A DNA stretch of 64,000 nt from Gigantopelta aegis (lineage: Eukaryota > Mollusca > Gastropoda > Neomphalida > Peltospiridae), in the NCBI RefSeq assembly GCF_016097555.1, contig NW_024532777.1, positions 61,559 through 125,558 on the forward strand. Reading direction: 5' to 3'. The number at the start of each line of letters is the position of its first letter. Position 1 is the first letter of the stretch. The translations under genes were made by a program, and so were the position numbers. The notes beneath the pieces are model-generated. The model was not told the origin of the DNA. It made no database searches and saw nothing but the letters and a program-made list of their open reading frames with translations. Positions 759 through 61,070 of this stretch are shown here, piece after piece.

Positions 759-985
759 CTGTTTTAGGTCCAGGATTAAGTTCAATATCTCCTGATAACA
801 TGAGGAGAAGTAGGAGAAATAAAACTAGAAGAATATCAAGTACCACCACCCTCATCTCCTAATGTCAATAGTAACTTTATCCATCCAGGGGTATCAGTGG
901 TAGAAGGAGTCTTTTTAGTAGTATATGGTATATGATGACAATACCATAACCCAATACTAGCTCTCCATTGACACGTATCAATCAT
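759..985 (-). CDS. Unit A exon 1: hydrophobic leader with 2A-like ribosome-skipping motif
   Basis: The ATG (983-985) opens MIDTCQWRASIGLWYCHHIP as in units C and G. The exon ends ACAG/GTCAGT at 759/758. Its last codons give LLLMLSGDIELNPGPKT, a complete 2A consensus DxExNPGP directly after a hydrophobic run. The known 2A reaction is co-translational skipping of the Gly-Pro bond, releasing the leader from the downstream protein, which would begin with Pro. Compared with F and G one T is missing in the GGGT(L) region and two bases in the hydrophobic run, so the frame from the ATG does not reach the motif as given. These are probably read errors, because the motif itself is intact. Confidence 0.75.
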
Positions 986-15200: not shown

Positions 15201-17321
15201 GTTTCTATTCTATACAGATGAGTAAATTTTTTATGACAAACAAATTTTAATCATTGCAATATAGATGACATCAACTGATAATGCTTGAAGCATCTTACTA
15301 TATAGCTTGCTTCCTTTCCGACACTATAATATATGTCACTGTTAATTGACTAATTCATAGCTCTAGGTTCCATTCATGCTTACAATGAAAAGTTATTTAC
15401 AATATATATTGTTTTGATTACTAATTACTATAACTACTATAGTTTATATAGTTCAACAAATGTGATCTAGTGACAATGCTGCACTGTAAAAAATAATTGA
15501 ATAATTTAACTAATATATAGTTATACAGGTTGCATTTACAAAATATAAACATAATACTATTTTGTTTACTAATATATTATGAAATTGATGTTTATATAGC
15601 TACATAAACAGTAGTATATTAATAATGAAAACAGTATTATGATTACTTTTTGACAAAAATAATTTTGCAATTGTAACCTATGTAACCAAAAAAATGGTTA
15701 AATTAACCAATCAATTTTTACAGTGTGGGTATATATGTGTAGTATGAATTCCATAGTAACTGTACTGCCCTAGCAGCTTATTCAAAACAAAATCATCATA
15801 ATTCTAACAATTAGTTTCAGTCAATTCCATCATGTATTAGTGATCAAAACAATATGATGATACTAGTAATTTAGCTAGTGTAGATCAGCTTCAACCATTG
15901 TTCTAGAGTACATGGACTTTATTAATTATTAAATACTCATGAATAAATAATATCATGAGCTTATTCAGATAATCTGAGTTTGGGCTGAAGAGGTTAATAT
16001 GTGAGAATCCATTGTACCACAAACTAACATAATTTATATTATAATATAATGGTATAAAACCAGACAGCACACATTTTGTGCTTCATTCAAAATGCAAGTG
16101 TCTGATCATTTTCTATTACTGAACCTTGTTGTTGTATATCCTGTTGTATAAGATCATCACATGTAAGATCTAATGAGATATTACATTTCTTTTAACTTCA
16201 TCAATCCAGTCTTGACATAACTTTTGAGCAGCTAATTTAATAGGACCACCTTCACTAGAGAGACATTGTAAGAAAAGTTGACAATGTCTTGTAACTTTGA
16301 AATACTGTTTAGTAAATTCATTCCACTTTTAAATTCACCAATTACATTGTAAACAGTTTGAGAATCTCGGACTGATTCACTTATCAATCTTTTAGAATAC
16401 ATTGCTGCAGAAATTCGTGGCAAACATCTACTTAAACTGGTTTGTAAGTCAGCAAAATGACTTGTCAGTACACTCTTCAACACTTTATGAACTTCATCAT
16501 TTTCTGTAGCATTGGTACTTGCTTTGTTACTAGAAAGACCTACAGAGATTACCACAGGAAGGGCTTCTATCTTGGTCACTTGTACCTTCTGTCTGTCTTT
16601 CTATTTCCCCTTGTTAAAGAAAGAAAGGACTATCAAGTCATTTCCATCACTTTCTGAGAGTAAAAACTTCAATTTCTACTATATATTTTACTAATATATT
16701 ACACTACATTGATAATTATTATAATGAACTATACATAGTGAATACCTTCATATTTAATATCTAGTTGTCCTCTCAGTGTAGTAGCTACATCCTTATCACC
16801 ACAAACTTTCAACAGCTGAGATAAGTTCTTCCCAAGAGGTGCAGTACTGTTTGTAATCCACCATTGTAAACCTTTCTCTAAAGCAAAGTGGTAGTCTTGA
16901 TCACTGCTGGCCATTGTCTTGAGTCTTCTCCTCTCCTCAAGTGAGACCCAGAAGACTAATGATTTTTAGTCCATTTTTCTTCAATGACAAAACCACTCTT
17001 AGAAAGAAGTCTTATAGCATTATTTTTGATGTCAATTCTATTGAAATAAATGAGACATCAGTTATATAGTGTGTTGTAATGTGTTACTGACCTGTTTTAG
17101 GTCAGGGTTGAGTTCAATATCACCTGATAAAATGAGGAGAAGGTAAGAGAAATAAAACTAGAGAGAATATCAAGTACCACCACCCTCATCTCCTGATGTC
17201 AATAGTAACTTCATCCTCCAGGGGTATCAGTGGTAAAAGGAGTCTTTTTAGCTTTGGTATATGGTATCTGATGACAATACCATAACCCAATGCTAGCTCT
17301 CCATTGACTGGTGTCAATCAT
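2436..17321 (-). CDS. Unit B gene: 2A-Death-helical-preANK(type I)-giant ankyrin protein
   Basis: Four-exon minus-strand model: exon 1 17092-17321 (leader with 2A), exon 2 16746-17037 (Death), exon 3 16125-16609 (helical, ending near LAAQKLCQDWIDEVK), exon 4 2436-14772. Exon 4 starts after acceptor TTTCATGTAG and codes GSQKVVKNLTLQSEEEEK, a type I pre-ankyrin module (DLDEVFKKLHPYFDFIDCEL; IYSPQLINLSNMPTIQIMLL; SLIAHAQGKLQFMHLIGIFG), N-cap ankyrins, about 102 array repeats, C-cap ankyrins and a Ser/Thr-rich tail. If intact it would exceed 4000 residues, mostly ankyrin. Ankyrin repeats bind proteins and Death domains recruit signalling partners, so a cytosolic receptor or scaffold is the likely role (inference). 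At least fifteen single-base indels interrupt the frame, nearly all in homopolymers. Confidence 0.7.
3276..13350 (-). repeat. Unit B ankyrin array: about 102 tandem 99-bp repeats with higher-order structure
   Basis: Each 99-bp unit codes one 33-residue ankyrin (for example DGYTALMLASQNGHTQVVEL then LLKENADVNIQKK). Distinct variants recur in fixed order: KKTENVNTQDKNGYSALM, KENVDVNKNTEKGWTALM, QENTDVNVQATNGA. The TEN-type marker repeat (minus of cagtcttttttagtagt) starts at 4634, 5325, 6116, 6908, 7501, 8289, 8781, 9670, 10457, 10951, 11843, 12535 and 13029. After visible 1-nt indels are allowed for, the spacings are 7, 8, 8, 6, 8, 5, 9, 8, 5, 9, 7 and 5 repeats of 99 bp. Repeats at both ends (3276-3900, 11950-13350) are more divergent and the centre is nearly identical, as expected of recent unequal exchange. 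Confidence 0.9.
13351..14772 (-). CDS. Unit B exon 4 start: type I pre-ankyrin module and N-cap ankyrins
   Basis: Starts after acceptor CATGTAG at 14773. The conceptual protein has a helical first part (LNKTFSVLMVAVRSSLDHKL; DDLDEVFKKLHPYFDFIDCE; ECFGEDKKNLVNELKEHML), then a probably alpha/beta part (SNMPTIQIMLLNPWNDATIG; SILKYIEIDTGS; LQFMHLIGIFGLTINGELIL). Ankyrins follow: FTFESALLEAAKAGHNEAVK, TALTTACQYGHSQLI, TPLMIASSCGHIETVEVLLQ, SSLVYAITGHKSLQVIEQLL, closing with KVRKEGREDICKLLEQFNVL. I know no named domain for the first 250 residues. Units D and E share it closely; C, F and G have a diverged counterpart. Frameshifts lie near 13830, 14030 and 14220. Confidence 0.7.
14773..16124. other. 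Unit B intron 3
   Basis: AT-rich non-coding stretch between exon 4 and exon 3 of unit B. The donor is AACAAG/GTTCAG at 16125/16124 and the acceptor CATGTAG/G at 14773. The unit D counterpart (31981-33720) is alignable by eye but has several hundred extra bases at about 32475-33060. A MITE-like element lies at 15482-15725. No coding signal was seen. Confidence 0.6.
15482..15725. mobile_element. MITE-like element with CACTGTAAAA terminal inverted repeats
   Basis: The left end reads CACTGTAAAAAATAATTGAA and the right end is its imperfect inverse, finishing TTTTTACAGTG at 15725. The inverted similarity continues inward (aataatttaac against gttaaattaacc). The element is about 244 bp, non-coding and AT-rich, and is absent from the corresponding intron of unit D. 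A second copy in inverse orientation lies in unit C at about 25306-25468, with the same core (actaatatattatgaaattg). No transposase is present, so it would be non-autonomous. Confidence 0.65.
16125..16609 (-). CDS. Unit B exon 3: helical domain of unknown family
   Basis: Acceptor TTTAACAAG above 16609 and donor AACAAG/GTTCAG at 16125. Codes GEIERQTEGTSDQD, then ATENDEVHKVLKSVLTSHFA, LSRCLPRISAAMYSKRLIS, SVRDSQTVYNVIGEFKSGMN, a helix ISKLQDIVNFSYN (paralogues: LQEHCQLFLQCLSSEGGP), and KLAAQKLCQDWIDEVKRN. In paralogues it ends CDISLDLTCDDL. Several amphipathic helices and the conserved GGP..KLAAQKL.QDW motif define it. It occurs in every unit except E. I cannot name the family; a second death-fold-like helical bundle is one possibility, unproven. 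Two or three single-base indels are visible. Confidence 0.65.
16746..17037 (-). CDS. Unit B exon 2: Death domain
   Basis: Same borders as in the other units: acceptor TTTCAATAG above 17037 and donor GAAG/GTATTC at 16746. Diverged from A, F and G: it reads SGFVIEEKWTK, then RRRLKTMASSDQDYHFALEK, GLQWWITNSTAP and VCGDKDVATTLRGQLDIKYE. Death-fold hallmarks (the W after VIEEK, the WW core and the final helix DVATTLRGQL) are kept. Local indels near 16950 and 16820 (APLGKNLS where others have APSWEELIS) scramble about 10 residues. The domain is expected to recruit Death-domain partners in the cytosol. Confidence 0.7.
17092..17321 (-). CDS. Unit B exon 1: leader with 2A motif broken by one base
   Basis: ATG at 17319-17321 codes MIDTSQWRASIGLWYCHQIP. 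The exon ends ACAG/GTCAGT at 17092. The hydrophobic helix and SGDIELNP are present, but the codons for Gly-Pro read CCTGACCT instead of CCTGGACCT, so one G is missing exactly at the 2A skipping site. One base is also missing at the Trp of PGWMKLL. If real, the deletion abolishes skipping and frame; if a read error, the exon is as functional as in G. Confidence 0.65.
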
Positions 17322-24800: not shown

Positions 24801-27200
24801 CTGGATTTGGTATCAATGCTTCTGTAACTGCATTCTTGAATTTTTCAAGTGTTGTTGATTGTTTAAATTCTTTGAGATGTTGTTTATAAGTACACATGTC
24901 CTTCTTTATCCTCTCATTAATTAGAGAAGTCCTCATTGTTAACGATAACTTCTAATACCTCCACATCAAGGTAGCTATACTATGGCCAAAGTTGCTGAAT
25001 AGTCTTGGAATATCTGTAGCATCTGTTAATCCTTCTATTCTATAATATTCTCCAAGATAATCAGAAATATCAATAAGTTCAAGTGTTCCATTATCAATTA
25101 GTTTACGTAGGACACTTTTAATATTTTTAACTAAATTTGTATATTCTTTTTGAAGACTTTCTAATTCTTCAGCTACAGGAAATCTGGAGTGACTGTCACT
25201 TCTTGATTATTAATCCCTACATAAATAGAAAGTACTAATGAAGTAGAGTCTTTGTTCAGTCCTAAATTAACAACTTTATAAAAGGATAACAAAAGCATCA
25301 AAAGTAATCATAATACTATTTTCATTATTAATATATACTGTTTATGTAGCTATATAAACATCAATTTCATAATATATTAGTAAACAAAAATAGTATTATG
25401 TTTATATTTTCCACATGTAACCATTATAAACTATATATTAGTTAAACCAACCATTCCATTTTACAGTGTAGTTGTTGTAACTGATATAGTCATTAGGTTT
25501 CATACATGCCTACCAATATATAAAAAGTGTTAACAAACATATGTTGTTTTGATTATTGATACTATGGAATTTACAGTTTATATAGTATAAATAAATCGGT
25601 CTAGCTATTTTACAAAATCATCATTGTTTCTAATCAATTAGTTTCATGAACAGTCACTTCCCCTCATCTATTAGTAATCAAAACAATATAATGTTTACTA
25701 TTTGTATCTATTGGTAAATTAGCTAGTGTGGATCAGCTTCATCTATTGTTCTGGAACATGTGGACTTTATTAATCAATTAATTATTATGTACTCATGAAT
25801 AAATAATATCATGAGCTTATTCAAATAATCTGAGAGTTCAGATTAAAGAAGGTCCAGATATATGAGCATTCATTGTAACATGTCGAACATAATTTTATTA
25901 TAGTAGTAAAAAGAGAGAACAACACACATAATTTGTGCTTTAATTCCAAAATGCAAGTGTCCTGATCACTTTATAATACTGACCTGTTGTTTTATATCCG
26001 ATCCTGTTTGTAAGATCATCACATGTAAGATCTACTGAGATATCACATTGCTTTTTTGACTTATCACCCATTCTTGACATAACTTTTGAGCAGCTAATTT
26101 AGTAGGACCACCTTCACTGGAGAGACATTGTAAGAAAAGTTGACAATGTTCCGTACCTTTTGAATACTGTTTACTAAATTCATTCCACTTTAAAATTCAA
26201 CAATTTACATTGTAAAAAACAGTTGGAGAATCCTCGGACTGATTTACTTATCAGTCCTTTAGAATACATTGCTGCAGAAACTTGTGACAAACATCTACTG
26301 CAATGGTTATGTAAGTCAGCAAAAATGCTGGAAAATACATCTTAAACACTTTATGAACTTCATCATTTTCTGTAGCATTGGTATTGCTAGTTATTAGAAA
26401 GATCTACAGAGTTACCACAAGAAGCCCTTCTAGCTTGGTCACTTGTTCCTTCTGTACGTCTTTCTAATTTCACCCTTGTTAAAGAAGGAAGGGACTATCA
26501 AGCCAATTCCACTACCTTTCTGAGAGTAAATTTTTCTGTCGTACTATATATTTTACTAATATATTATACTACATTGATTATTATTATAATAAACTATAAC
26601 TAGTGAATACCTTCACTCTTAATGTCTAAGTTGTCCTCTCAGTGTGTAGTAGCTACATCCACATTAGCCCAAACTTTCAACAGCTGAAATAAGTTCTTCC
26701 CACCAGGGGCAGTACCATTTGCTATATCCACCATTGTAAAAACCTTCCTCTAGAGCAAAGTGGTAGTCTTGATCAGTGCTGGCCATTGTCTTGAGTCCGT
26801 CTACCTCTCCTCGAGTGACACACCTAGAAGAAATAGTGAGTTCAGTCCATTTATCTTTAAATCAAACGACCTCTTAATAAGAAGGGTATAGCATTAACTG
26901 CTGTCAACCTCTATTAAAGTAAATTGAAAACAAATCATTCATCAGTTATGTTTTTTTAATGTTTACTGACCTGTTTTAGGTCCAGGATTAATTCAATATC
27001 TCCTGATAAAATGAGGAGAAGTACAAGAAACAAAAACTAGAGAGAACATCAAAGTACCACCACCACCTCATCTCCTATGTCAATAGTAACTTCATCCATC
27101 CAGGGGTATCAGTGGTAAAGGAGTCTTTTTAGTAGTATATGGTATATGATGACAATACCATAACCCAATACTAGCCTCTCCATTGACACGTATCAATCAT
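21839..27200 (-). CDS. Unit C gene: 2A-Death-helical-preANK(type II)-ankyrin protein, heavily frame-broken
   Basis: Exons by homology: exon 1 26971-27200, exon 2 26611-26910, exon 3 25984-26474, exon 4 21839-25216. Exon 4 opens GINNQEVTVTPD after acceptor TTTATGTAG, has the type II module (IDISDYLGEYYRIEGLTDAT; QSTTLEKFKNAVTEALIPNP), then ankyrins (IEIVEMLLDKQPGNQKLSLV; SLTTACQYGHSDLL), a short variable array of about 8 repeats (22640-23445), the C-cap and a Ser/Thr-rich tail. Frameshifts occur about every 50-150 bp, far denser than in G. Either this part of the sequence is poorly polished or the copy is a pseudogene; even density in coding and non-coding parts would favour error. Confidence 0.6.
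22640..23445 (-). repeat. Unit C variable ankyrin array, about 8 repeats
   Basis: Degenerate 99-bp repeats of the KENADVN type, between the C-cap (CLLQSKADPHIV equivalent) and the N-cap end (KEGREDICKVLEQ equivalent). Shortest array of the six readable units. Repeats are less uniform than in B, with linkers such as NDQNEEGLTALM. Confidence 0.75.
25306..25468. mobile_element. Second copy of the CACTGTAAAA MITE-like element (truncated, inverse orientation)
   Basis: Core sequence (taaacatcaatttcataata; agtaaacaaaaatagtatta) is the reverse complement of the core of 15482-15725, and the right end finishes TTTTACAGTG at 25468. The left terminal repeat is missing. It lies in intron 3 of unit C just upstream of exon 4, where units F and G have unrelated sequence. 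Confidence 0.6.
25984..26474 (-). CDS. Unit C exon 3: helical domain of unknown family
   Basis: Acceptor AACAAG above 26474, donor ACAACAG/GTCAGT at 25984. Contains the same markers as in B (FESGMNLVN-like; GGP..KLAAQKL; SVEVILHVMILQ-region equivalent of DLTCDDL) but with many indels (for example KNxSPTVYNV disturbed by an extra aaaa). Function unknown; it always follows the Death exon. Confidence 0.5.
26611..26910 (-). CDS. Unit C exon 2: Death domain
   Basis: Homologous to the Death exons at 417-706 and 60501-60792, with acceptor TTTAATAG and donor GAAG/GTATTC. Recognisable pieces are KWTELTISSR-region, TMASTDQDYHFALEE, GLQWWI and LRGQLRH/DIK. At least six indels are visible against unit G. 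Confidence 0.6.
26971..27200 (-). CDS. Unit C exon 1: leader with 2A motif disrupted
   Basis: ATG at 27198-27200 (MIDTCQWR, with a one-base insertion after it). The end of the exon reads TTATCAGGAGATATTGAATT then AATCCTGGACCT: one base short of the intact GAACTTAATCC, so SGDIE and NPGP are in different frames. Upstream, ACTTTGATGTTCTCTCTAGT keeps the hydrophobic helix codons. Confidence 0.6.
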
Positions 27201-34700: not shown

Positions 34701-34954
34701 GTGTATACCTGTTTACTGACCTGTTTTAGGTCCAGGATTAAGTTTCATATCTCTCCTGATAAAATGAGAGAAGTAAGAGAAACAAGACTAAAGAGAATAT
34801 CAAAAGTACCACCACCCTCATCTCCTGACAATCAATAGTGACTTCAAATCCATCCAGGGGTATCAGTGGTAGAAGGAGTCTTTTTAGTAGTATATGGTAT
34901 ATGATGACAATACCATAACCCAATGCTAGCTCTCCATTGACTGGTGTCGATCAT
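28759..34954 (-). CDS. Unit D gene: 2A-Death-helical-preANK(type I)-ankyrin protein
   Basis: Exon 1 34721-34954, exon 2 34385-34669, exon 3 33721-34247, exon 4 28759 to about 31980. Exon 4 is type I: IDDLDEVFRKLHAYFDFIDC, IYSPQLVNLSNMPTIQIMLL, LQFMRLIGIFGLTINGELIL, FTFELALLEAAKRGHNEAVE, then N-cap ankyrins, about 10 variable repeats (29555-30560), C-cap and a tail ending in a KQTKGQR-like basic stretch. The exon 2 and exon 4 acceptors lack a clear AG as given (TTTCAATG and TTTATGCCGG against TTTCAATAG and TCATGTAGG elsewhere), each explained by a small change. Indels are moderate. Confidence 0.6.
29555..30560 (-). repeat. Unit D variable ankyrin array, about 10 repeats
   Basis: 99-bp repeats coding for example VELLLKENADVNDQDKEGWT. 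Alternating linkers NDQDKEGWTALM and NIQKEDGWTALM, and a YGRHIQ/YRYSH-type loop (tatcgactagc) not found in B. The array is bounded by the same caps as in the other units. Confidence 0.75.
31981..33720. other. Unit D intron 3
   Basis: Non-coding, AT-rich. Aligned with intron 3 of unit B it carries extra sequence at about 32475-33060, with no clear terminal repeats, so either an insertion in D or a deletion in B. No gene seen. Confidence 0.5.
33721..34247 (-). CDS. Unit D exon 3: helical domain, diverged
   Basis: Same position and borders as the other exon 3 copies. Sequence is closer to unit F than to B: it has VLTCHFAHLSDQLK-like, SHNLAAKTKMAIH-like and FEMQCNLSKKTFQ-like stretches, and the C-terminal GG.TKLSVKSL.QDWI equivalent. 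It has extra bases near 33960-34030 relative to F. Family unknown. Confidence 0.5.
34385..34669 (-). CDS. Unit D exon 2: Death domain
   Basis: Codes TMASSDQDYHFALEEGLQWW in one uninterrupted run, then the SWEELISAVESCGD equivalent and LRGQLDIKDE. The N-terminal helix (RLLVKSGFVIEDKW) is present but shifted by a one-base deletion near 34650. Death-fold signature residues as in unit A. Confidence 0.65.
34721..34954 (-). CDS. Unit D exon 1: leader with degenerate 2A region
   Basis: ATG at 34952-34954 (MIDTSQWRASIGLWYCHHIP). The hydrophobic stretch IFSLVLFLLLL is readable. The 2A codons read GGAGAGATATGAAACTTAAT against GGAGATATTGAACTTAAT in F and G, so SGDIE is lost, although LNPGPKT can still be read after it. 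Borders conserved (ACAG/GTCAGT). Confidence 0.6.
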
Positions 34955-36503: not shown

Positions 36504-39500
36504 TTAAATAAGGACTTGAAACTTGGCATTCTTTTTTCTTTGTTGTTTCTTGTTAGTTTTATTTCTCTCAATTCACTAGTTATTGGTGAAGATGTAGGGT
36601 GTGGTCATTGTTTCACTAGATGTTTGTGATGATGACTTTTATAGTCTGTTCTATGATTGCTTTGTGTCCTCTAAGTGTGATGCTATTTGACCCTCATATT
36701 TAATTAATAGTTTCAATAATGGCTTCATCTTTATTATCATTAGCTACATCTAATGGGTGTTTCATTCATAGCAGCAATAATATTAGGATTAGCACCATTT
36801 TCTAAGAGCATCTCTACTATTGAAGTGGGTTGTCCACCAGTTAGCTGCAAGGAACAAAGGAGTTAACTATAATGATTTTCTTGTTTATTGACGTCAGCTC
36901 CAGTTTTGTATGAAGAGCATCCCACTATATCAACATGTCCACATGATGAGCTACCATAAGTGGAGTAACGATCACGTACCAGTGGAGTATCTGGATTATC
37001 TATTGTCTTCATTATGACTGTAGCTAAATCTCCTTTAACACATGAGTCTAGTAGTTCTCTCTGATCATTAGTGAGATGTGGAAGTTTGTTTGAGAGGAAG
37101 GTAATGAGAGTAGGGTGACCACCATAACATAATAGTACTACTGTTTTTTCAATCTCATCAGTAGTCAGTTCACTTTTGTCTAAGAGCACTTTAACAATGT
37201 CTCTCTGTTACCTGTAAGAGCTGCTAAAAGAAGTGCTGTTATTTCAATTCTTTAATACACATTACTATATGAGGATTTGCTTTTGATTGTAGCAAGTATT
37301 CAACTACTTCAGAATGCTTATTCTCAATAGCTACAATTAGGGCAGTCTCTCCTTTTTTGCTCTGAATGTTAATGGTCTGCATGCTCTATGAGTAGTAGTT
37401 TAATAACCTCTGTATGACCATTTAGACTAGCTAACATTAGAGCAGTCCATCCATCTTCCTTCTGATATTTAACACTTGCATTCTCTTTTGAGTAGTAGTT
37501 CAACGATCTGTGTTATGACCAATAAGACTAGCTAGCATTAGGACATCAATCCATCTACATTCTGAATATTAACATCTGCATTCTCTTTGAGTAGTAATTC
37601 AACAACCTGTGTATGACATTTAGACTAGCTACCATTAGGGCAGTCAATCCTTCTACATTCTGAATATTAACATCGCATTCTCTTTGAGTAATAGTTCAAC
37701 AACCTGTGTATGACCATTGTGACTAGCTGCCATTAGGCAGTCAATCCTTCTACATTCTGAATATTAACATCTGCATTCTCTTTTGAGTAGTAGTTCAACA
37801 ACCTGTGTATGACGACATGGTTAGACTAGCTACCATAGGGCAGTCAATCCTTCTACATTCTGATATTATTAACATCTGCATTCTCTTTGAGTAGTAGTTC
37901 AACAACCTGTGTATGACCATTTAGATTAGCTGCCATTAGGGCAGTCAATCCTTCTACATTCTGAATATTAACATCTGCATTCTCTTTGAGTAGTAATTTC
38001 AACAACCTGTGTATGACCATTTAGACTAGCTGCCATTAGGGGCAGTCACTCTACGTTCATTCTGAATATTTAACATCTGCATTCTCTTTGAGTAGTAGTT
38101 CAAAACCTTGTGATGACCATTTAGACTAGCTACCATTAGGGCAGTCACTCTATGTTCATTCTGAATATTAACATCTGCAATTCTCTTTGAGTAGTAGTTT
38201 GACAATCTTTTGTATGACCATGTTGACTAGCTACCATTAGAGCGTCACTCTATGTTCATTCTGAATATTAACATCGCATTCTCTTTGAGTAGTAGTTTTG
38301 ACAATCTTTGTATGACCATGTTGACTAGCTCACCATTAGGGGCAGTCAATCTATATTTCATTCTGAATATTAAACATCTGCATTCTCTTTGAGTAGAAAT
38401 TTAACAACCTCAGTATTGCCTATTTTGCAGCTCCAATAATAGGGATGGTCAATCTACTACTGAGTTGTAACTGTTGCTTCTCCTCCTTTTCTTTTTTGTT
38501 TATATTTAAAACATTAAACTGTTCTAATAATTACAGATATCTTCTCTTCCTTCTTCTTCTTACTTTATCACAATAGTCTGGTCATTAATAAAGACATTAG
38601 GTTGGCACCAGCTTTAGTAGTGTTGTTCTATAACTTGAAGTGACTTGTGTCCCGTTATAGGGCATATACTAGGTGGACTGTACCCATCATTGTCTGTACT
38701 GTTTGAACATTAGCTCCACCTAGTAGGAGGACTTGTACTGTCTCTGTATGTCCACAAGATGAGGCTATCATAAGAGGAGTAATATCATTGACTAGTGTAC
38801 AGTTGATATCAACAGTAGAGTCAAAAATATGACTTGCTGTAGAGATGTGATCTCCTTCAGCACATGATATGAAAAGTTGGATTTTTCTTGTGTAAAATAG
38901 TCTAGTAAGGCATTAATAAAGTAATAATAAGTTGAGAGTGTCCATATTGACATGCTGTATGTAGAGATGTTACTACTAATAAACTTGATATCTTATTCTC
39001 TACATCCACCTCCTAATTGGAGAGGAACTCCACAGCTTCATTATGATCCAGCTTTTGCTGCTTCTAGAAGAGTGACTCAAAAGTGAAGTTCATTCTTCTC
39101 GTCGTCTTTGAGGATGAGTTCACCATTAATTGTTAGACCAAAGATACCAATAGAGCATAAACTGTAACCTGCCTTGAGCATGAGCTATGGGCTATCAGCT
39201 TTTGACTTAAGGACAATGTATTTGATGATAACTGAGCCTGTATCAATCTCTATATACTTAAGGATTGATTGCTTTGATTTGTGAGGTAGTAAATGTCCTC
39301 TATTAGTAGATAAAGTCCTCCAATAGTAGCATCATTCCATGGATTGATGTAACAGATTTTGAATTGTAGGCATATTTGATAAATTTACCTAGTTGTGGAG
39401 AAATAGATCTTCTTAGTTTAGTTTTGAGTTTCTTTTACTGTAGACGAGCAACGAAGTGGTCTCAGCTTTGACCGCATATGTTCCTTAAGTTTTGCTGACA

Positions 39501-50500: not shown

Positions 50501-52720
50501 GTTTTTTTCTGATTTTAATCCCTACACAAATGGAAAGCACTAATTTAGCAGAGTGCCTTTGTTCAGTCCCCTAGATTAATAAATTACAGAAAGTATACCA
50601 AAGGGCATGAATGAAAACAAACCACTTTACACGGGGTTGCATTAAATGAGGCAAGTGGTGTTGGGTGTTCAATTCCCTTTTTTCAGAAGAATTTGCACAT
50701 GGTTCTTTCAGAAGATTTGCACATGGTTTAACTACCCCGCCACTTTGTAAAATGGGACTAAGTCAAGGAATATACTACTTACAAAAACAGTGTAATTTGA
50801 GTCTAGACATACATTTATTCAGGGTGGGCATTTTTATTTGCACAATACTTGTGTTGGTTCCAGGTGTTTTTTTATTCAAAGCTGGCATTTAATGAAAGAA
50901 ATACAGTTGTATATTATATATATATAATATACACATACCAACACTTCACTTTATAATTAATATAAACATACATATATTCACTATTAATAGTTTGTTTAAC
51001 TTTACAGTCCATTTAGGTTTTATACATGCCACAATACAATGAAAAAATATTAATGTTTCTTTTTGATTACTAATACTATGGAATTTAGTTTGTGTAGTTG
51101 GATAAATAATCCCTCGGCAAAATCATCATAGTTCTTAACAATTGTATGACCCTTACCATCAATTCCCATCATCTATTAGTAATCGAAAACCAATATAATG
51201 TTTACTGATTTGGATCAGTAAATTTATCTATAATATGGATTAGCTTCAACCATTGTTCTGGAACATGTGGACTTTATTAATCAATTAATTATTATATACT
51301 CATGAATAAATAATATTATGAGTTTGTTCAGATAATCTGAGAGTTCAGATTAAAGAAGTCCAGATATATGAGGATTCATTGTAACATGTCTAACATAATT
51401 TTATTATAGTAGAATAAAGAAAGAACAGCACACATAATTTTGTGCTTCATTTAAAAATTCAATTGAATTCAAGTGTCTGTTCATTTTATAAATACTTGAC
51501 CTTTTTGTTGTATATCCTGTTTGTATAAGATCAGCACATGTAAGATCTAGTGAGTTTATCACATTTCTTTTTTGACTCCATCAATCCAGTCTTGACCTAA
51601 CTTTTGAGCAGCTAATTTAGTATAGGACACCTTCACTGGAGAGACATTGTAAGACCCAAAAGTTGACAATGTTCCTGTACTTTGAAATGTCTTTTCTTTG
51701 ATAAATTGCATTGCATTTTCAAATTCATCAATCACATTTTGGTGAACAGTTGGAGACTCTCTGACTGATTTACTTATCAGTTTATGTGAATACATCTCTG
51801 CAGCAACTTGTGGGAGACATGATTTTAATTGTTCACTTAAACAAAGCAAAATGACATGTCAGTACACTCTTCAATACTTTATGAACTTCACTTTTTTCTG
51901 TAACATCGACACTTTGCTATGTTATTAGAATGATCTACAGAGTTACCACAGGAAGAGCTTCTATCTTGATCACTTGTTCCTTCTGTCTGTCTTTCTATTG
52001 CCCTTAGAAAAAGAAGGAAACTGTCCACAGCAGCTTCATCCCTCTGATTTCTTGAGATGAAGCCTCCCGTCTATTATATATTTTACTACTATATTATACT
52101 ACATTGATTATTATATATAATGAACTATATATAGTAGATACCCTTCATCGTTAATATCTAGTTGTCCTCTCAGTTTTAATAGCAACATCCACTATTACCA
52201 AACTTTCAACAGCTGAAATAAGTTCTTCCCAAGAGGGAGAAGTACCATTTGTAATCCACCATTGTAAACCTTTCCTCTCTAGAGCAAAGTGGTAGTCTTG
52301 ATCACTGCGGGCCATTGTCTTGAGTTGGCTCCTCTCCTCCATGACACACTAGAAGACTAGTGAGTTCAGTCCATTTATCTTTAACAACAAAACCACTCTT
52401 AACCAAGAAGTCGTAGAGCATTGTTTGATGTCAATTCTATTGAAATAAATGAGACATCATTTTATATAGGTGTGTTAATGTTTTACTGACCTGTTTTAGG
52501 TCCAGGATTAAGTTCAATATCTCCTGATAAAATGAGGAGAAGTACGAGAAACAAAACTAGAGAGAATATCAAAGTACCACCACCCTCATCTCCTGATGTC
52601 AATAGTAACTTCATCCATCCAGGGGTATCAGTGGTAGAAGGAGTCTTTTTAGTAGTATATGGTATATGATGACAATACCATAACCCCAATACTAGCTCTC
52701 CATTGACACGTATCAATCAT
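44563..52720 (-). CDS. Unit F gene: 2A-Death-helical-preANK(type II)-ankyrin protein
   Basis: Exon 1 52491-52720, exon 2 52143-52436, exon 3 51501-52012, exon 4 44563-50521. Exon 4 is type II: NIKSALRKLIDNETLELIDI, YLGKYFRIKGLTDVTDIPNT-like, NDEDFLIDEGYRRGHMCTYK-like, VTLLVLDQD-like; then ankyrins with GDTAIITCRNNHSDIV-like and TLVSVYVNSTLK-like repeats, the N-cap, about 33 variable repeats (45360-48665), the C-cap, and a tail ending NKKQIKRKKMQNFKSYI. Exons 1-3 are well preserved, but the stretch 48700-50520 has many small insertions (runs of T, C and G). Domain roles as for unit B. Confidence 0.65.
45360..48665 (-). repeat. Unit F variable ankyrin array, about 33 repeats
   Basis: 99-bp ankyrin repeats in blocks: NIQSKEGMTALMRASGNGHT with EIVELLLQANADVHILSKEG (46080-46770), NDQDKEGWTALMLASRNGHT and NIQSEKGMTALMLAS (46900-48600), NIQKEDGWTPLMLASENGNT (45400-45900). 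The same block order recurs at least twice (46380-46900, 47380-47500 and 47950-48060 share VIEVLLKENADVNIQSE next to DRWTALMLASHNGHT), so there is higher-order duplication here too, older than in B. Confidence 0.8.
51501..52012 (-). CDS. Unit F exon 3: helical domain of unknown family
   Basis: Best copy of the variant shared with unit D: CLSEQLKSCLPQVAAEMYSH, KLISKSVRESPTVHQNVIDE, FENAMQFIKEK, then KLAAQKLGQDWIDGVKKEM. Acceptor TTTCTAAG above 52012, donor AAAAAG/GTCAAG at 51501. N-terminal part GNRKTDRRNK and SDQDRSSSCGNSVDHSNN is probably disordered. No named domain. Confidence 0.65.
52143..52436 (-). CDS. Unit F exon 2: Death domain
   Basis: Acceptor TTTCAATAG above 52436; donor GAAG/GGTATC at 52143 (one extra base). 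Readable parts: ELTSNNALRLLG, SGFVVKDKWTELTSLL, RSQLKTMARSDQDYHFAL, GLQWWITNGTSPSWEELISA, VESLVIVDVAIKTERTTRY (the last part shifted; paralogues have CGDKDVATTLRGQL). Death-fold core conserved. Confidence 0.7.
52491..52720 (-). CDS. Unit F exon 1: intact hydrophobic leader with 2A motif
   Basis: ATG at 52718-52720. One extra C near 52686 shifts the first ten codons, but from GLWYCHHIPYTTKKTPSTTD onward the frame is open to the exon end. It codes PGWMKLLLTSGDEGGGTLIF, SLVLFLVLLLILSGDIELN and PGPKT. A helix of about 17 hydrophobic residues directly precedes the canonical D-I-E-L-N-P-G-P. Donor ACAG/GTCAGT. Established: this motif mediates ribosome skipping at Gly-Pro, and 2A sequences merged with signal sequences are known in some marine invertebrate proteins. 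Inferred: the Death-ankyrin protein is made mostly as a separate cytosolic chain. Confidence 0.85.
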
Positions 52721-54270: not shown

Positions 54271-57200
54271 CTAAAATGTGGACTTGAAATTTGGCGATCT
54301 TTTTTTCTTTGTCTGTTTCTTGTTAGTTTTATTTCTCAATTCACTTGTTATTAGTGAAGATGTAGGTGTGGTCATTGTCTCACTAGATGTTTGTGAAGAT
54401 GACTTTATAGTCTGTTCTGAAGATTGGTTTGTGTCCTGTAATTGTGATGCTATTTGACCTCCATATTTAATTAATAGTTCAAAAACAGTTTCATGTTGAT
54501 TCTCAATAGCTACATCCAATGGAGTTTTATTCATGCAAATAACATTAGGATTTGCACCATTTTCTAAGAGTATCTCTACTATTGAAGTGGATTGTGTTTG
54601 CCAGTTACTGCAAAGAACAAAGGAGTGAATCCATAATAACTTTCTTGTGTTATTAAACATCAGCTCCAGCTTGTATGAGAGCATCCACTATATCATCATG
54701 GTCCACATGATGAAACTATCATGAGTGGAGTGGTAAGACCTAGTACCAGTGGAGTATCTGGATTATTTAATGTCTTCATTAACTGCACCTAAATCTCCAT
54801 TAACACATGAGTCTAGTAGCTCTCTCTGATCATTAGTGAGGTGTGGAAGTTTCTTTGGGAGCAGAGTAATGTCAGTAGGGTTGTTATCTAAACATAATCG
54901 TATTATTACTCCTGCTATTTCAAAGGAGTTGGTTCACTTTTGTCTATGAGCACTTTAACAATGTCACTATTACCAGTAAGAACTGCTATTACAAATGCTG
55001 TCATTTCAATCCCTTCATTATATGCTACTATATGAGGATCTGCTTTTGATTGTAATAAGAATTCAACTACGTCAAGATGTTCGTTCATAATAGCTAGCAT
55101 TAGTGCAGTTTCTCTTCTTTGTTTGAATATTAACATCTGCATTCTGTAGTTGAGAAGTAGTTTGACAACTGTGTATCACCATTTTCACTAGCTATCAATA
55201 TTAAAGGGCAGTCTTTCCTTTTTTGCTCTGAATATTAACATCTGCATTCTCTTTGAGTAGTAGTTCAACAACCTGTGTATCACCATTTTCACTAGCTATC
55301 ATTAGGGCAGTCACTCCATCTTCATCTGAATATTAACATCTGCATTATCTTTGAGTAGTAGTTCAGCAACCTGTGTATTACCATTATAACTAGCTATCAT
55401 TAGGGCAGTCACTCCACCTTCATCCTGAATATTAACATCTGCATTCTCTTTGAGTAGTAGTTCAACAACCTGTGTGATGACCATTATGACTAGCTATCAT
55501 TAGGGCAGTAAATCCATTATGTTCTGAATATTAACATCTGCATTCTCTTTGATAGTAGTAGTTCAACAACCTGGATATGACCATTTTAGACTAGCTAACA
55601 TTAGGGGAGTCACTCACCTTCATCCTGAATATTAACATCTGCATTCTCTTTGAGTAGTAGTTCGACAACCTGTGTATCACCATTTAGACTAGCTAACATT
55701 AGGGGGAGTCTTTCCTTCTTCATCCTGAATATGAACATCTGCATTTCTCTTGAGTAGTAGTTCAACAACCTGGGTATGACCATTTTCACTAGCTATCTTT
55801 AGTGCAGTCAGTCCTCCCCCTTCATCCTGAATATTAACATCTGCATTATCTTGAGTAGTAGTTCAAAACCTGTGTATGACCATTTTCACTAGCTATCATT
55901 AGGGGAGTCACTCCACCTTCATCCTGAATATTAACATCTGCATTCTCTTTGAGTAGTAGTTCGACAACCTGGGTATGACCATTTTAGACTAGCTAACATT
56001 AGGGCAGTCACTCCACCTTCATCCTGAATATTAACATCTGCATTCTCTTTGAGTAGTAGTTCAACAACCTGTGTATTACCATTATGACTAGCTATCATTA
56101 GGGGAGTCTTTCCTTCTTCACTCTGAATATTAACATCTGCATTCTCTTTGAGTAGTAGTTCGACAACCTGGGTATGACCATTTAGACTAGCTAACATTAG
56201 GGCAGTCACTCCACCTTCATCCTGAATATTAACATCTGCATTATCTTTGAGTAGTAGTTCAACAACCTGGGTATGACCATTATGACTAGCTATCATTTAG
56301 GGGAGTCTTTCCTTCTTCACTCTGATATTAACATCTGCATTCTCTTTGAGTAGTAGTTCAAAAACCTGTGTATTGACTATTTTCACTAGCTATCATTAGG
56401 GCAGTCACTCCACTTCATTGCTGAATATTAACATCTGCATTCTCTTTGAGTAGTAGTTCAACAACCTGTGTATGACTATATGACTAGCTATCATTAGGGC
56501 AGTCAATCCATTATTGTTCTGAATATTAACATCTGCATTCTCTTTGAATAGTAGTTCACAACCTGGGTATGACCATTTTGACTAGCTATCATTAGGGCAG
56601 TCAATCCATTATTGTTCTGAATATTAACATCTGCATTCTCTTTGAGTAGTAGTTCAACAACCTGTGTATTATACCATTTTCCTAGCTATCATTAGGGCAG
56701 TCACTCCATCTTCATTCTGAATATTAATATCTGCATTCTTTTTCAGTAGTAGTTCAGCAACAAATATTTGACCCTTTTTACTAGCTATCATTAGGGGAGT
56801 ATATCCATTTTTGTCTGAGTGTTAAACATTTGTAGTCTTTTTGAGTAGTAGTTCAGCAATCGGGGTATGACAACGGTCAACAGCCATCATTAGGGCATTT
56901 GCTCCTTTATAGTTTGTACATTAACATCTGTGTTTTCTTCAAGTAGTAGTTCTACAACCTGGGTATGACCATTTTGACCCTAGCTAACATTAGGGCAGTC
57001 CATCCTTCTTCATTCTGAATATTAACATCTGCATTCTCTTTGAGTAGTAGTTCAACAAACCTGTGTATGACCATTTTGGCTAGCTCTCATTAAGGCAGTC
57101 ACTTTACTTGTAGATTGAACATTGACATCTATTGTCTCTTTGACAACAACTATGGTATTACTAATATTTGCAGCTTCAATGTAGGGGTCATCAATCTGCT

Positions 57201-59282
57201 GCTACTGAGTTGTAACTGTTGTTCCTTCTCTTTTTCTTTTTCCGTTATATTTAAAACATTAAACTGTTCTAACAATCTACAGATATCTTCTCTTCTTCTT
57301 CTCTATTTTATCAACAATACTCTGGTCACTGACGAAGACATTAGGTTGAGCACCAGCTTTAAGTAGTTGTTCTATAACTTGTAGTGACTTGTGTCCAGTT
57401 ATAGCATATACTAGTGGACTATGCCCATCATTGTCTGTACTACTGACATTAGCTCCACCTTGTAAGAGGACTTGTACTGTTTCTATATGTCCACAAGATG
57501 AGGCTATCATAAGAGGAGTAATATCATTGACTAGTGTACAGTTTGATATCAACAGTAGAGTCTAAAATATGACTTGTTGTAGAAATGTGATCTCCTTCAG
57601 CACTTAATATGAAAAGTTGGAATTCTTCTTCTGTAAAATAGTCTAGTAAGTGCATTAATAAAGTAATAATAAGTTGAGAGTGTCCATATTGACATGCTTT
57701 AGTGAGAGCTGTTACTACTAAACTTGATTTCTGGTTCTCTGGCTGTTTATCAAGTAACATTTCCACTATCTCAATGGAGTTTACACGTAGAGATACAATG
57801 AGAGCTGTCTCATCATTCTTGTTGTAATAAATGGATCAGCATTATATTGAAGTAATAATTTCACAATATCTGAGTGATTATTTCGACATGCTATTATGAT
57901 AGCTGTGTCACCATCATTTCTTTGTATATCAAGATTAGCCCCAGTCTGGAGTAGGTAGTTGACTATATTGTAGGAATTGTATCACATGCTATCATCAATG
58001 CAGTATAACCAGTGTTGTCTTGAATGTTAGGATTAGCTCCAGCTGATATTAGTGTTTGTACAACTTGTTCATATCTTCCTTTACTAGCTAACATTAGTGC
58101 TGTACTGCCCTTCTTCATTTTGATAATCGATATTATCAATTAAGTCAAGGAAGAACTGAAACAGCTTCATCATTACCAGTCTTGAAGCATTTTGTAATGT
58201 TTGGTCAAAAGAAAATTGAGTTTCATCTTTCTCTTTCAAGATAGGCTGATCATCAATAGTCAGTTCAAAGATACCAACAAGTAATGCAAATTCTTTCTTT
58301 AGAGTAGCAATTTCCAAGATGAAGTCTAATCTTGATCTAGGTACAAGTAGAGTAACATATATTGATCCTTCCTCCACTCGTATATGAGTCATTCTCTGAT
58401 GAAACATATAGTTAATTAGAGTTTTTAAAGTTCTCCAATGTTTTCTTTCCCCATTCACGATTAAGTTTGATAACCACTTCACAAATAATTGATGTGACTT
58501 CTGGATTTGGTATCAATGCTTCTGTAACTGCATTCTTGAATTTTTCAAGTGTTGTTGATTGTTTAAATTCTTCGAGATGTTGTTTGTAAGTACACATGTC
58601 CTTCTGTATCCTCTCATCAATTAGGAAGTCATCATTGTCAACGATAACTTCTAATACCTCCACATCAAGGTAGCTATAATATGGCCAAAGTTGCTGAAAT
58701 AGTTTTGGAATATCTGTAACATCTGTTAATCCTTCTATTCTAAAATATTCTCCAAGATAATCAGAAATGTCAATAAGTTCAAGTGGTTCCATTATCAATT
58801 AGTTTACGTAGGGCATTTTTAATATTTTTAACTAAATCTGTATATTCTTTGTGGAGACCTTTTAATTTTTTCAGCTACAGGATAATCTGGGGAGACTGTC
58901 ACTTCTTGATTATTAATCCCTACATAAATAGAAAGCACTAATGAAGTAGAGTCTTTGTTCAGACCTAGATTAGCAACTTTATAAAAGGATAACAAAAGCA
59001 TGCAAATAAACCATTTTCCACCTGCATTAAATGAGTTCATTTCTTTCAGAAGATTTGCACGCGGTTTGCACTACCCCATCCACTTTGTAAAATGACTAGT
59101 CCAAGGCTATACTACTTACAAAAACCAGTGTAAGTTGAGTCTAGACCTGGCATTTATTCAGGGTGGGCATTTATTTGCACAGTACTTGTGTTTTTTTTCC
59201 AAGTGTTTATTCAAGGCTGGCATTTATTCGAAGTAGGCATTTAATGTAGGAAATACAGTGTATATGTGTATGTATATATATA

Positions 59283-59385: not shown

Positions 59386-61070
59386 AATTGACTATTAAAT
59401 AGTTGGTTGTTTTAACTGATATATCATTTAGGTTTCATACATGCCTACAAATATGTGTTAACAACATATGGTATTTTGATTACTGATACTATGGAATTTA
59501 CAGTTTATATAGTAATAAATAATATCTGGTCTAGCTATTTATAAAATCATCATGGTTTTAACAATTATATATTAGTAATCAAAACAATATAATTTTTACT
59601 GATTTGTATCAGTAAATTTAGCTAGTATGAATCAGCTTCTACCCATTTTCTGGACCATGTGGACTTTATTAATCAATTAATTATTTATGTACTCATGAAT
59701 AAATAATATCATGAGCTTATTCAGATAATCTGAGAGTTCAGATTAAAGTTCATATATATGAGCATTCATTGTAACATGTCCAAAATAATTTTATTATAGT
59801 AGTATAAAGAAAGAACAACACACATAATTTGTGCTTTATTCAAAATGCAAGTGTCTGATCATTTTATAATACTAACCTTGTAGTTTTATATCCTGTTTGT
59901 GTAAGATCATCACATGTAAGATCTAGTGAGATATCACATTTCTTTTGACTTCTTCAACCATATCTTGACATAACTTTTGAGCAGCTAATTTAGTAGGACC
60001 TCTTTCACTGTAGAGACATTGTAAGAAAAGTTGACAATGTTCCTGTAACTTTGAAATATTGTTTACTAAATTCATTCCACTTTCAAATTCACCAATTACA
60101 TTGTAAACAGTTGGAGAATCTCGGACTGATTTGACTTATCAGTCCTTTAGAATACATTGCTGCAGAAACTCGTGATAAACATCTACTTAATGGTTACTTA
60201 AGTCAGCAAAATGACTTTGTCAGTACACTCTTCAATATTTTATGAACTTCATCATTTTCTGTAGCATTGGCATTTGCTATGTTACTAGAAAGATCTACAG
60301 AGTTACCACAGTAAAGGCTTCTAGCTTGGTCATTTGTTCCTTCTGTATGTCTTTCTATTTGCCCTGTTAAAGAAGGAAAGGACTATCAAAGCCATTTCCA
60401 CCACTTTCTGAGAGTAAAATTTCCATGTCTACTATATATTTTACTAATATATTACACTACATTGATAATTTATATATATTGAACTATACATTTTACATAC
60501 CTTCATTTTTAATATCTAGTTGTTCTTCTCAGTGTAATAGCAACATCCTTATCACCACAACTTTCAACAGCTGAAATAAGTTCTTCCCAAGAGGGAGCAG
60601 TACCATTTGTATTCCACCATTGTAAACCTTCCTCTAGAGCAGAGTGAAAATCTTGATCAGTGCTGGCCATCGTCTTGAGTCTTCTCTCTCTTCCAGTGAC
60701 ACACCTAAAAGACTAATGAGTTTTAGTCCATTTTTCTTCAATGATAAAACCACTCTTAGCAAGAAGTCTTAGAGCATTATTTGATGTCAATTCTATTAAA
60801 ATAAATAAGACATCAGTTATATAGGTGTGTTAATGTTTACTGACCTGTTTTAGGTCCAGGGTTGAGTTCAATATCTCCTGATAAAATGAGGAGAAGTACG
60901 AGAAACAAAACTAGAGAGAATATCAAAGTACCACCACCCTCATCTCCTGATGTCAATAGTAACTTCATCCATCCAGGGATATAGTGTAGAAGGAGTCTTT
61001 TAGTAGTATATGGTATATGATGACAATACCATAACCCAATGCTAGCTCTCCATTGACACGTATCAATCAT
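54271..61070 (-). CDS. Unit G gene: 2A-Death-helical-preANK(type II)-ankyrin protein (best-preserved copy)
   Basis: Exon 1 60845-61070, exon 2 60501-60792, exon 3 59877-60363, exon 4 54271 to about 58919. Exon 4 follows TTTATGTAG and codes GINNQEVTVSPDYPVAEKIK, type II module MEPLELIDISDYLGEYFRIE, LWPYYSYLDVEVLEVIVDND, CTYKQHLEEFKQSTTLEKFK, IRVEEGSIYVTLLVPRSRLD, LLVGIFELTIDDQPILKEKD. Ankyrins: NIDYQNEEG start, IEMLLDKQPENQKSSLVVTA, N-cap, about 21 variable repeats, C-cap, tail TSSETMTTPTSSLITSELRN and NKKQTKKKRSPNFKSTF stop. Only a handful of indels interrupt it. Likely a cytosolic Death-ankyrin signalling protein released from its leader by 2A skipping (inference). Confidence 0.75.
55075..57170 (-). 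repeat. Unit G variable ankyrin array, about 21 repeats
   Basis: 99-bp repeats with the linkers NIQDEGGVTALM, NIQSEEGKTPLM and NIQNNNGLTALM alternating, for example MIASHNGHTQVVELLLKDNA. A QENTDVNVQ/KKTTNV pair near 56750-56960 matches the marker pair of unit B, so the ancestral array predates the split of types I and II. Confidence 0.8.
58084..58919 (-). CDS. Unit G exon 4 start: type II pre-ankyrin module
   Basis: About 270 residues in nearly open frame. First part helical (DVTDIPKLFQQLWPYYSYLD; NDDFLIDERIQKDMCTYKQH; NPEVTSIICEVVIKLNREWG), second part probably alpha/beta (RVEEGSIYVTLLVPRSRLDF; EFALLVGIFELTIDDQPIL). Length and order match the type I module of B, D and E, including the GS...V motif followed by a helix and L.GIF.LTI, yet identity is low. 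So it is the same domain in a diverged version. No database name known to me. Confidence 0.7.
58920..59876. other. Unit G intron 3 with GGCATTTATTC repeats and long (AT)n
   Basis: Non-coding. At 59146-59255 the motif ggcatttattcaagg/ggtgggcatttatt recurs about four times at 20-30 bp spacing, a dispersed repeat also present in intron 3 of unit F (50805-50895). At 59270-59390 there is a long (AT)n microsatellite. Neither is found in the intron of unit C, which holds a MITE-like element instead. Confidence 0.6.
59877..60363 (-). CDS. Unit G exon 3: helical domain of unknown family
   Basis: Acceptor TTTAACAG above 60363, donor CTACAAG/GTTAGT at 59877. Codes GQIERHTEGTNDQARSL, NIANANATENDEVHKILKSV, SAAMYSKRLISQ, SVRDSPTVYNVIGEFESGMN, KLQEHCQLFLQCLYSERGP, KLAAQKLCQDMVEEVKRNVI region. 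Helical, with a conserved Cys-rich QEHCQLFLQC stretch. Unnamed; absent from unit E only. Confidence 0.65.
60501..60792 (-). CDS. Unit G exon 2: Death domain
   Basis: Acceptor TTTTAATAG above 60792, donor GAAG/GTATGT at 60501. Reads ELTSNNALRLLAKSGFIIEE, KWTKTHxSF-region, RRLKTMASTDQDFHSALEEG, LQWWNTNGTAPSWEELISAV, ESCGDKDVAITLRRTTRY (paralogues LRGQLDIKDE). Hydrophobic core positions and both Trp clusters of the family are kept. One indel lies near 60690 and one at 60527. Confidence 0.72.
60845..61070 (-). CDS. Unit G exon 1: intact hydrophobic leader with 2A motif
   Basis: Open from ATG (61068-61070): MIDTCQWRASIGLWYCHHIP, then a small local shift (KRLLLHYIPGW where F has KKTPSTTDTPGW), then MKLLLTSGDEGGGTLIFSLV, LFLVLLLILSGDIELNPGP and KT at donor ACAG/GTCAGT. 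With F it proves the leader-2A reading frame. The N-terminal 44 residues before the hydrophobic helix are longer than a usual signal peptide n-region, so a signal-anchor helix is possible. Confidence 0.85.

Follow-up and report, generated by a model that had tools for sequence, protein, structure and literature searches.

Organization of the Locus

The window, that is, the whole 64-kb stretch of DNA analyzed here, contains on its minus strand six copies of a common first exon (units A, B, C, D, F, and G), identified by BLAST with the exon 1 region of unit F. The sequence-only reading had noted this exon in F and G and, by motif, in A; all three do carry the literal octapeptide DIELNPGP, but the family comprises six copies, not three. 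Exon 1 of each unit opens with an ATG (MIDTCQWRASIGLW in the consensus) and closes one base past PKT, and its end is common to all units: a hydrophobic stretch, SGDIELNPGP, KT, and a splice donor, with small changes in B, C, and D. The exon 1 frame of F and G is LIFSLVLFLVLLLILSGDIELNPGPKT, followed by a phase-1 donor, and would be joined through ACA-G|AA-TTG (T-E-L-T) to the Death exon. The donor ACAG|GTCAGTAA is identical in six of six units, and the acceptor AG is present in five, unit D having ATGA instead. The following features were assigned:

52491..52720, minus strand: unit F exon 1 (MID start, polar linker, hydrophobic helix, 2A, KT, first base of a split codon); an extra G breaks the ATG-to-2A frame
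52528..52572, minus strand: unit F hydrophobic helix LIFSLVLFLVLLLIL, from sequence and hydropathy
52498..52521, minus strand: unit F 2A octapeptide DIELNPGP, predicted skip between G and P
52437..52490, minus strand: unit F intron 1, GT...AG, with an early in-frame stop
52143..52436, minus strand: unit F exon 2, Death domain, with indels; the Death match was made with the consensus
60845..61070, minus strand: unit G exon 1, open from ATG to NPGP
60852..60875, minus strand: unit G 2A octapeptide DIELNPGP
60793..60844, minus strand: unit G intron 1
60501..60792, minus strand: unit G exon 2, Death domain, with one indel
58424..58783, minus strand: unit G helical segment ahead of the TRADD-N-like part (14-93% identity to 23 relatives; low-confidence all-helical model)
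58120..58428, minus strand: unit G TRADD-N-like domain, start truncated by a frameshift (weak Pfam TRADD-like_N match; Gly-Ser turn; structure model)
54271..58139, minus strand: unit G ankyrin repeats in several frames, approximate limits
759..985, minus strand: unit A exon 1, intact octapeptide
17092..17321, minus strand: unit B exon 1, one-base deletion in the octapeptide
26971..27200, minus strand: unit C exon 1, one-base deletion in the octapeptide
34721..34954, minus strand: unit D exon 1, octapeptide with two aligned differences, no acceptor AG

In unit F, exon 1 starts with the ATG at 52720 and ends at 52491, the donor GT lies at 52490, and exon 2 begins at 52436; in unit G, exon 1 occupies 61070..60845 and exon 2 begins at 60792. 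The boundaries proposed earlier (52491/52436 and 60845/60792) are exact, and the arrangement of a hydrophobic segment, a canonical 2A, and a conserved donor in phase with the Death exon is borne out by the sequence, from which the in-phase splice is itself predicted. Exon 1 can code for about 75 residues; counted from the MID ATG, the leader has 74. An in-frame ATG further down (MKLLL) would give a leader of approximately 39 residues. The frame read through into intron 1 is K-T-G-Q-stop, the stop lying a few codons past the donor, so an unspliced message would yield the leader alone.

The domain order of the window protein is Death, helical, TRADD-N-like, ankyrin. The Death-helical-ankyrin order given previously is amended in that the helical part also contains the TRADD-N-like domain, a weak Pfam match. 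Consensus exon 2 matches Pfam Death with an E-value of 2e-4 and 21.9 bits (cut-off 22.6), a cut-off passed by some relatives from the sponge Amphimedon queenslandica (P0002, P0045). The ankyrin part consists of arrays of 99-bp repeats (Pfam Ank_2, E-value 1.6e-13 in unit B), and no NACHT or LRR families were found in the five window segments scanned. The sequence of the window suggests a tandem family of sponge-type immune genes. None of the 15 close relatives found via the TRADD-N region has the leader, because their gene calls begin in an internal exon.

The ankyrin array of unit B (3298-13355) comprises approximately 102 repeats, each 99 bp (33 residues) long, with 78% matches and only 1% indels; the other arrays of ankyrin repeats listed have 3-6% indels. 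A further ankyrin-start segment, at 38424-39001, belongs to the same family and has no leader nearby by BLAST with F exon 1.

Hydrophobic Helix and 2A Motif

The core of the leader helix occupies residues 50-64 of 74, with about 49 residues ahead of it, and the helix directly abuts the 2A. The best 19-residue hydropathy value is 2.76, at residues 50-68, and none of 2000 shuffled leaders was equally hydrophobic before the octapeptide; membrane association is read from hydropathy alone, and the same measure misses the sea-urchin leader SpNLR2A6. The ribosome tunnel covers some 30-40 residues, so the window helix would still be inside the ribosome when the fate of the Gly-Pro bond is decided, so that any membrane insertion of a skipped leader would be of the tail-anchored kind. 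Because of the roughly 49 residues ahead of the helix, the unskipped chain is more likely to be anchored in the membrane, in either orientation, than to be secreted. The signal-sequence leader of the sequence-only reading is thus correct in that the helix abuts the 2A, but a bare signal sequence it is not, and a secretory-directed unskipped product is not supported as stated.

In unit D the octapeptide has two aligned differences next to an insertion of two bases; the changes in B, C, and D are of the same sort as the small changes across exons and introns. No match to DIELNPGP was found in 100 dinucleotide shuffles of the window. By eye, the upstream hexapeptide LLILSG resembles the LLLLSG-like StopGo class (PMC12846837).

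Frameshifts and Sequence Conservation

While exon 1 of unit G is open from ATG to NPGP, unit F has four G at 52687-52684 as against three in the other copies, which places the ATG at 52720 out of frame with the F 2A. Indels are likewise present in the F and G Death exons, and single copies are heavily frameshifted, but the six-copy majority consensus is open across exons 1 and 2. Relative to this consensus, the two parts of exon 1 have 1.29 and 1.90 indel events per 100 nt, intron 1 has 1.86, exon 2 has 1.94, and intron 2 has 2.16; of the 79 events, 4 have a length divisible by three. Most indel bases (74 of 93) are private to a single copy, and 51 of 93 (55%) fall in same-base runs, which hold 43% of consensus bases. 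Exon 1 is the least variable part of the compared stretch (exons 1-2, introns 1-2), with 12.1 and 13.6% variable columns in its two parts, compared to 28.3% in exon 2, 38.5% in intron 1, and 44.5% in intron 2. Exon 1 has 14 distinct silent substitutions in 53.3 sites and 16 distinct replacement ones in 174.7 sites (ratio 0.35), and exon 2 has 31 silent and 56 replacement (ratio 0.52), the ratios being based on raw counts from six related, noisy copies. Even indel rates together with constrained substitutions favor sequencing error in functional genes over decay, and this is what the data suggest for the indels of the window.

The leader was further compared in an alignment of 36 sequences, 33 from the 37 assembly loci with the octapeptide described below (units A, F, and G of the window among them) and three from window units B, C, and D; four loci (L001, L002, L011, L037) were omitted as other types. 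Conservation of the octapeptide in 33 of the 36 is a selection criterion. Nucleotide diversity is 0.43-0.56 before the MID ATG and approximately 0.26 past it, a drop consistent with this ATG as the start. Diversity at codon positions 1, 2, and 3 of the hydrophobic part is 0.18, 0.14, and 0.32; in the N-terminal part of the same 36 leaders the codon-position signal is absent (0.27, 0.26, 0.26), which counts against coding constraint there, unless it is masked by alignment noise.

Distribution in the Assembly and Origin of the Contig

The DNA pattern for DIELNPGP occurs at 37 places in the 1.149-Gb assembly of 5216 contigs, and the reversed pattern at none. The window belongs to a 125,558-bp contig (C614), and 35 of the 37 places are on contigs numbered C614 or higher. 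A donor-like site, by our own loose pattern, is present at 29 of 35 loci, and the Death exon was detected at 20 of 37 within the approximately 3 kb fetched. A search of the assembly with the leader peptide gave at least 106 matches at E ≤1, a lower bound on matches in which one broken leader can produce two; at least nine of them cover residues 1-76 without a stop.

The remaining two places, L001 and L002 on C5 (40.8 Mb) and C10 (91.7 Mb), contain a different 2A sequence in an apparent LINE-like element on these large contigs, with its own hydrophobic N-terminus and DIELNPGP 2A.

All leader matches listed are on contigs numbered C614 or higher, while at least four of the lower-numbered ones (C1, C5, C6, C10) exceed 40 Mb, and all named relatives of the leader are from sponges. 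A COX1 search revealed a long copy on C6, with a frame fitting the invertebrate mitochondrial code and AGA at what we take to be Ser positions, and a frame-broken copy on the small contig C1045, which reads like what is presumably a code-4 mitochondrion. The CpG observed/expected ratio ranges from 0.17 to 0.24 within the window; three chromosome samples give 0.36-0.74, but the remainder of C614 itself gives 0.38-0.44, which makes this contrast weak as evidence of origin. Most likely, the contig is sponge DNA of low coverage that entered a larger bilaterian animal's assembly, as possible contamination or from an associated organism; low coverage would at the same time account for the indels of the window.

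Leader Proteins of Amphimedon queenslandica

Of 1316 candidates in a search with the consensus leader plus Death part, one protein was retained; it is a NACHT protein of A. queenslandica, begins MIDVSQWRASIGLW, and reaches LLLLSGDIELNPGP ahead of its Death-like part. Its first 240 residues in turn retrieved 101 proteins from UniRef, NCBI, and ENA (P0001-P0101), every named one from A. queenslandica and the remainder unnamed ENA entries; since the set was collected using the leader, it says nothing on the frequency of the leader among sponge receptors. By Pfam, 53 are NACHT and 46 ankyrin proteins, one being both and three neither. The module found on them consists of MID..QWRASIGLW, a hydrophobic helix, and SGD[IV]ELNPGP, with the Death part next. 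The pattern D[IV]E.NPGP was found in 97 of the 101 (regular expression, first 600 residues, at least 20 residues ahead of it); of the other four, P0095 and P0096 start almost at the 2A, P0014 has NPGP in an altered octapeptide, and P0082 has none near its start. QWR..IG and 2A occur together in 86 of 101.

Between NACHT and ankyrin types, median identity over 400 sampled pairs is 0.80 in the leader and 0.43 in the 90 residues past it; the leader behaves like a module common to both. Other bearers of the leader are P0054, of the phosphorylase superfamily, and P0045, a Death-ankyrin-LRAT protein. Hydropathy indicates two hydrophobic segments in 46 of the 86 leaders, three in 19, one in 18, and none in 3, the last segment overlapping the octapeptide or ending no more than 4 residues away in 66 of 86. 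As the first segment lies far upstream and would have emerged before the 2A, Amphimedon chains may already be membrane-associated when the 2A acts.

Four models (P0049, P0051, P0069, P0070) have the octapeptide preceded by KQTNR rather than by the L-rich segment, as if an exon had been skipped or mispredicted.

Comparison with Known Systems

The module is of a known kind, represented by the 2A signal sequences of sea-urchin NLRs. New are its presence in a sponge, the longer leader with its own conserved start, its occurrence as a module across several receptor families, and the Death-TRADD-N-ankyrin (non-NLR) partner. That a 2A beside a signal sequence gives dual targeting in a marine invertebrate, as asserted previously, is confirmed for the sea urchin (Roulston et al., 2016, PMC4981915), whose NLRs are the cited case, StopGo being described as rare in cellular genes (PMC12846837). 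SpNLR2A likewise has an N-terminal 2A right after an L-rich hydrophobic run and belongs to a multigene family of Death-containing immune receptors, but its leader has 26 residues at the very N-terminus, compared to 74 with a conserved start and linker in the window, and it is found on Death-NACHT-LRR proteins and was tested in cells, while the window leader is on Death-TRADD-N-ankyrin proteins known from sequence. SpNLR2A6, similar in make-up to the window leader, skips at approximately 80% in vitro by its authors' estimate; its skipping-dead mutant goes to the Golgi, with about 44% in the medium as opposed to about 15% for the wild type (PMC4981915).

The Amphimedon proteins share with the window MID..QWRASIGLW, the helix abutting SGD[IV]ELNPGP, and Death next, but have a longer linker and usually one or two extra hydrophobic segments; identity to the window model in the Death-to-ankyrin part is about 27%, and the leader sits on NACHT proteins in Amphimedon, whereas the five window segments scanned contained no NACHT family. 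Amphimedon also has a large lineage-specific TRADD-N expansion in the NCOA6 clade (Kaur et al., 2021, PMC8195603), with a Death-like domain, TRADD-N, and then ankyrin repeats, as read for the window family; the excerpted text of that paper makes no mention of a 2A or leader, and the likeness to the window family is drawn from its description. Viral 2A/StopGo sequences have the same octapeptide D(V/I)ExNPGP and LLLLSG-like upstream hexapeptide class (PMC12846837), while the window 2A belongs to an animal gene, is N-terminal, and is separated from the next domain by an intron. We found no link in the literature between 2A and sponge immune genes, nor a description of the 2A of the Amphimedon leader proteins; the 2A survey of Rao et al. 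(2025), cited in PMC12846837, may list some.

Predicted Products and Alternatives

We consider it probable that these sponge genes carry a skippable 2A leader on a Death-TRADD-N-ankyrin protein and produce a soluble adaptor plus leader, with a minority of membrane-tethered protein. The first exon would encode the leader, with its conserved MID..QWRASIGLW start, polar linker, single hydrophobic helix, and L-rich 2A/StopGo, and would be spliced in phase onto the Death, helical, TRADD-N-like, and ankyrin exons. At NPG|P the ribosome would mostly skip the Gly-Pro bond, freeing a 73-residue leader, whose sole hydrophobic helix ends 9 residues from the C-terminus (tail-anchor-like), and a soluble Pro-started Death-TRADD-N-ankyrin immune adaptor. 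In the minority of chains in which the bond is made, the helix would emerge still fused and tether the protein to the membrane. The splice, the skip and how often it occurs, insertion into the membrane and its orientation, the two product pools, and the immune role are all predicted from sequence. Against this explanation are the restriction of literal octapeptides to three of six units, the many frame-broken copies, the flat N-terminal codon signal, the lack of the leader in the 15 relatives found via the TRADD-N region, and some Amphimedon models (such as P0049 and P0051) with a 2A lacking the L-rich segment.

A model close to that of the sequence-only reading, in which the leader is a signal sequence of the sea-urchin kind, with a cytosolic skipped and a secreted unskipped product, corresponds to the export measured for the SpNLR2A6 skipping-dead mutant (PMC4981915), but about 49 residues precede the window helix, no obvious small-residue cleavage site follows it, and 65 of 86 Amphimedon leaders have two or three hydrophobic segments; we regard it as unlikely. 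Quite unlikely, in our estimate, is near-complete skipping with negligible unskipped product, the leader being a separate membrane micro-protein made in equal number with the receptor. Leader identity exceeding that of the adjoining Death part (Amphimedon NACHT-ankyrin medians of 0.80 and 0.43, 400 pairs) and the stop just inside intron 1, by which an unspliced message would also give the leader alone, agree with it; however, exon sharing or gene conversion could explain the conservation, and no function is known for the leader.

The view that the window copies are dead, the 2A exon being a relic in a decayed tandem array, draws on the frameshifts in most exons, but indels are equally common in introns, substitutions are clearly fewer in exon 1, 4 of 79 indel events are multiples of three, and private indel bases predominate (74 of 93), a pattern that points to sequencing error; decay appears very unlikely. 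Most improbable is an inactive 2A in a plain membrane-anchored Death-TRADD-N-ankyrin receptor. Putative membrane-bound sponge NLRs with transmembrane domains have indeed been reported (PMC12909245), but the linker is of different length and sequence in the window and in Amphimedon whereas the octapeptide and its L-rich context are maintained, and the motif fits a consensus whose natural members, when tested, are active (PMC12846837).

Beyond the skippable leader of the window genes, we tentatively suggest, as a possible though doubtful generalization, that a portable sponge first exon across NLR, Death-TRADD-N-ankyrin, and other families acts as a co-translational tether-or-release switch. If so, each translation would end in one anchored receptor or in two products, a soluble receptor and a membrane micro-protein, and many putative membrane-bound sponge NLRs, among the transmembrane architectures reported (PMC12909245), would owe their transmembrane call to the 2A leader, which would give a simple account of them. 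About 100 predicted sponge immune proteins with a 2A leader would bring translational recoding into the innate immune receptors of an early-branching animal phylum; receptor tethering would become testable, and gene models may depict one protein where two exist.

Six of the Amphimedon NACHT proteins (P0004, P0006, P0007, P0042, P0044, P0048) contain a second NPGP approximately 113-115 residues past the leader 2A.
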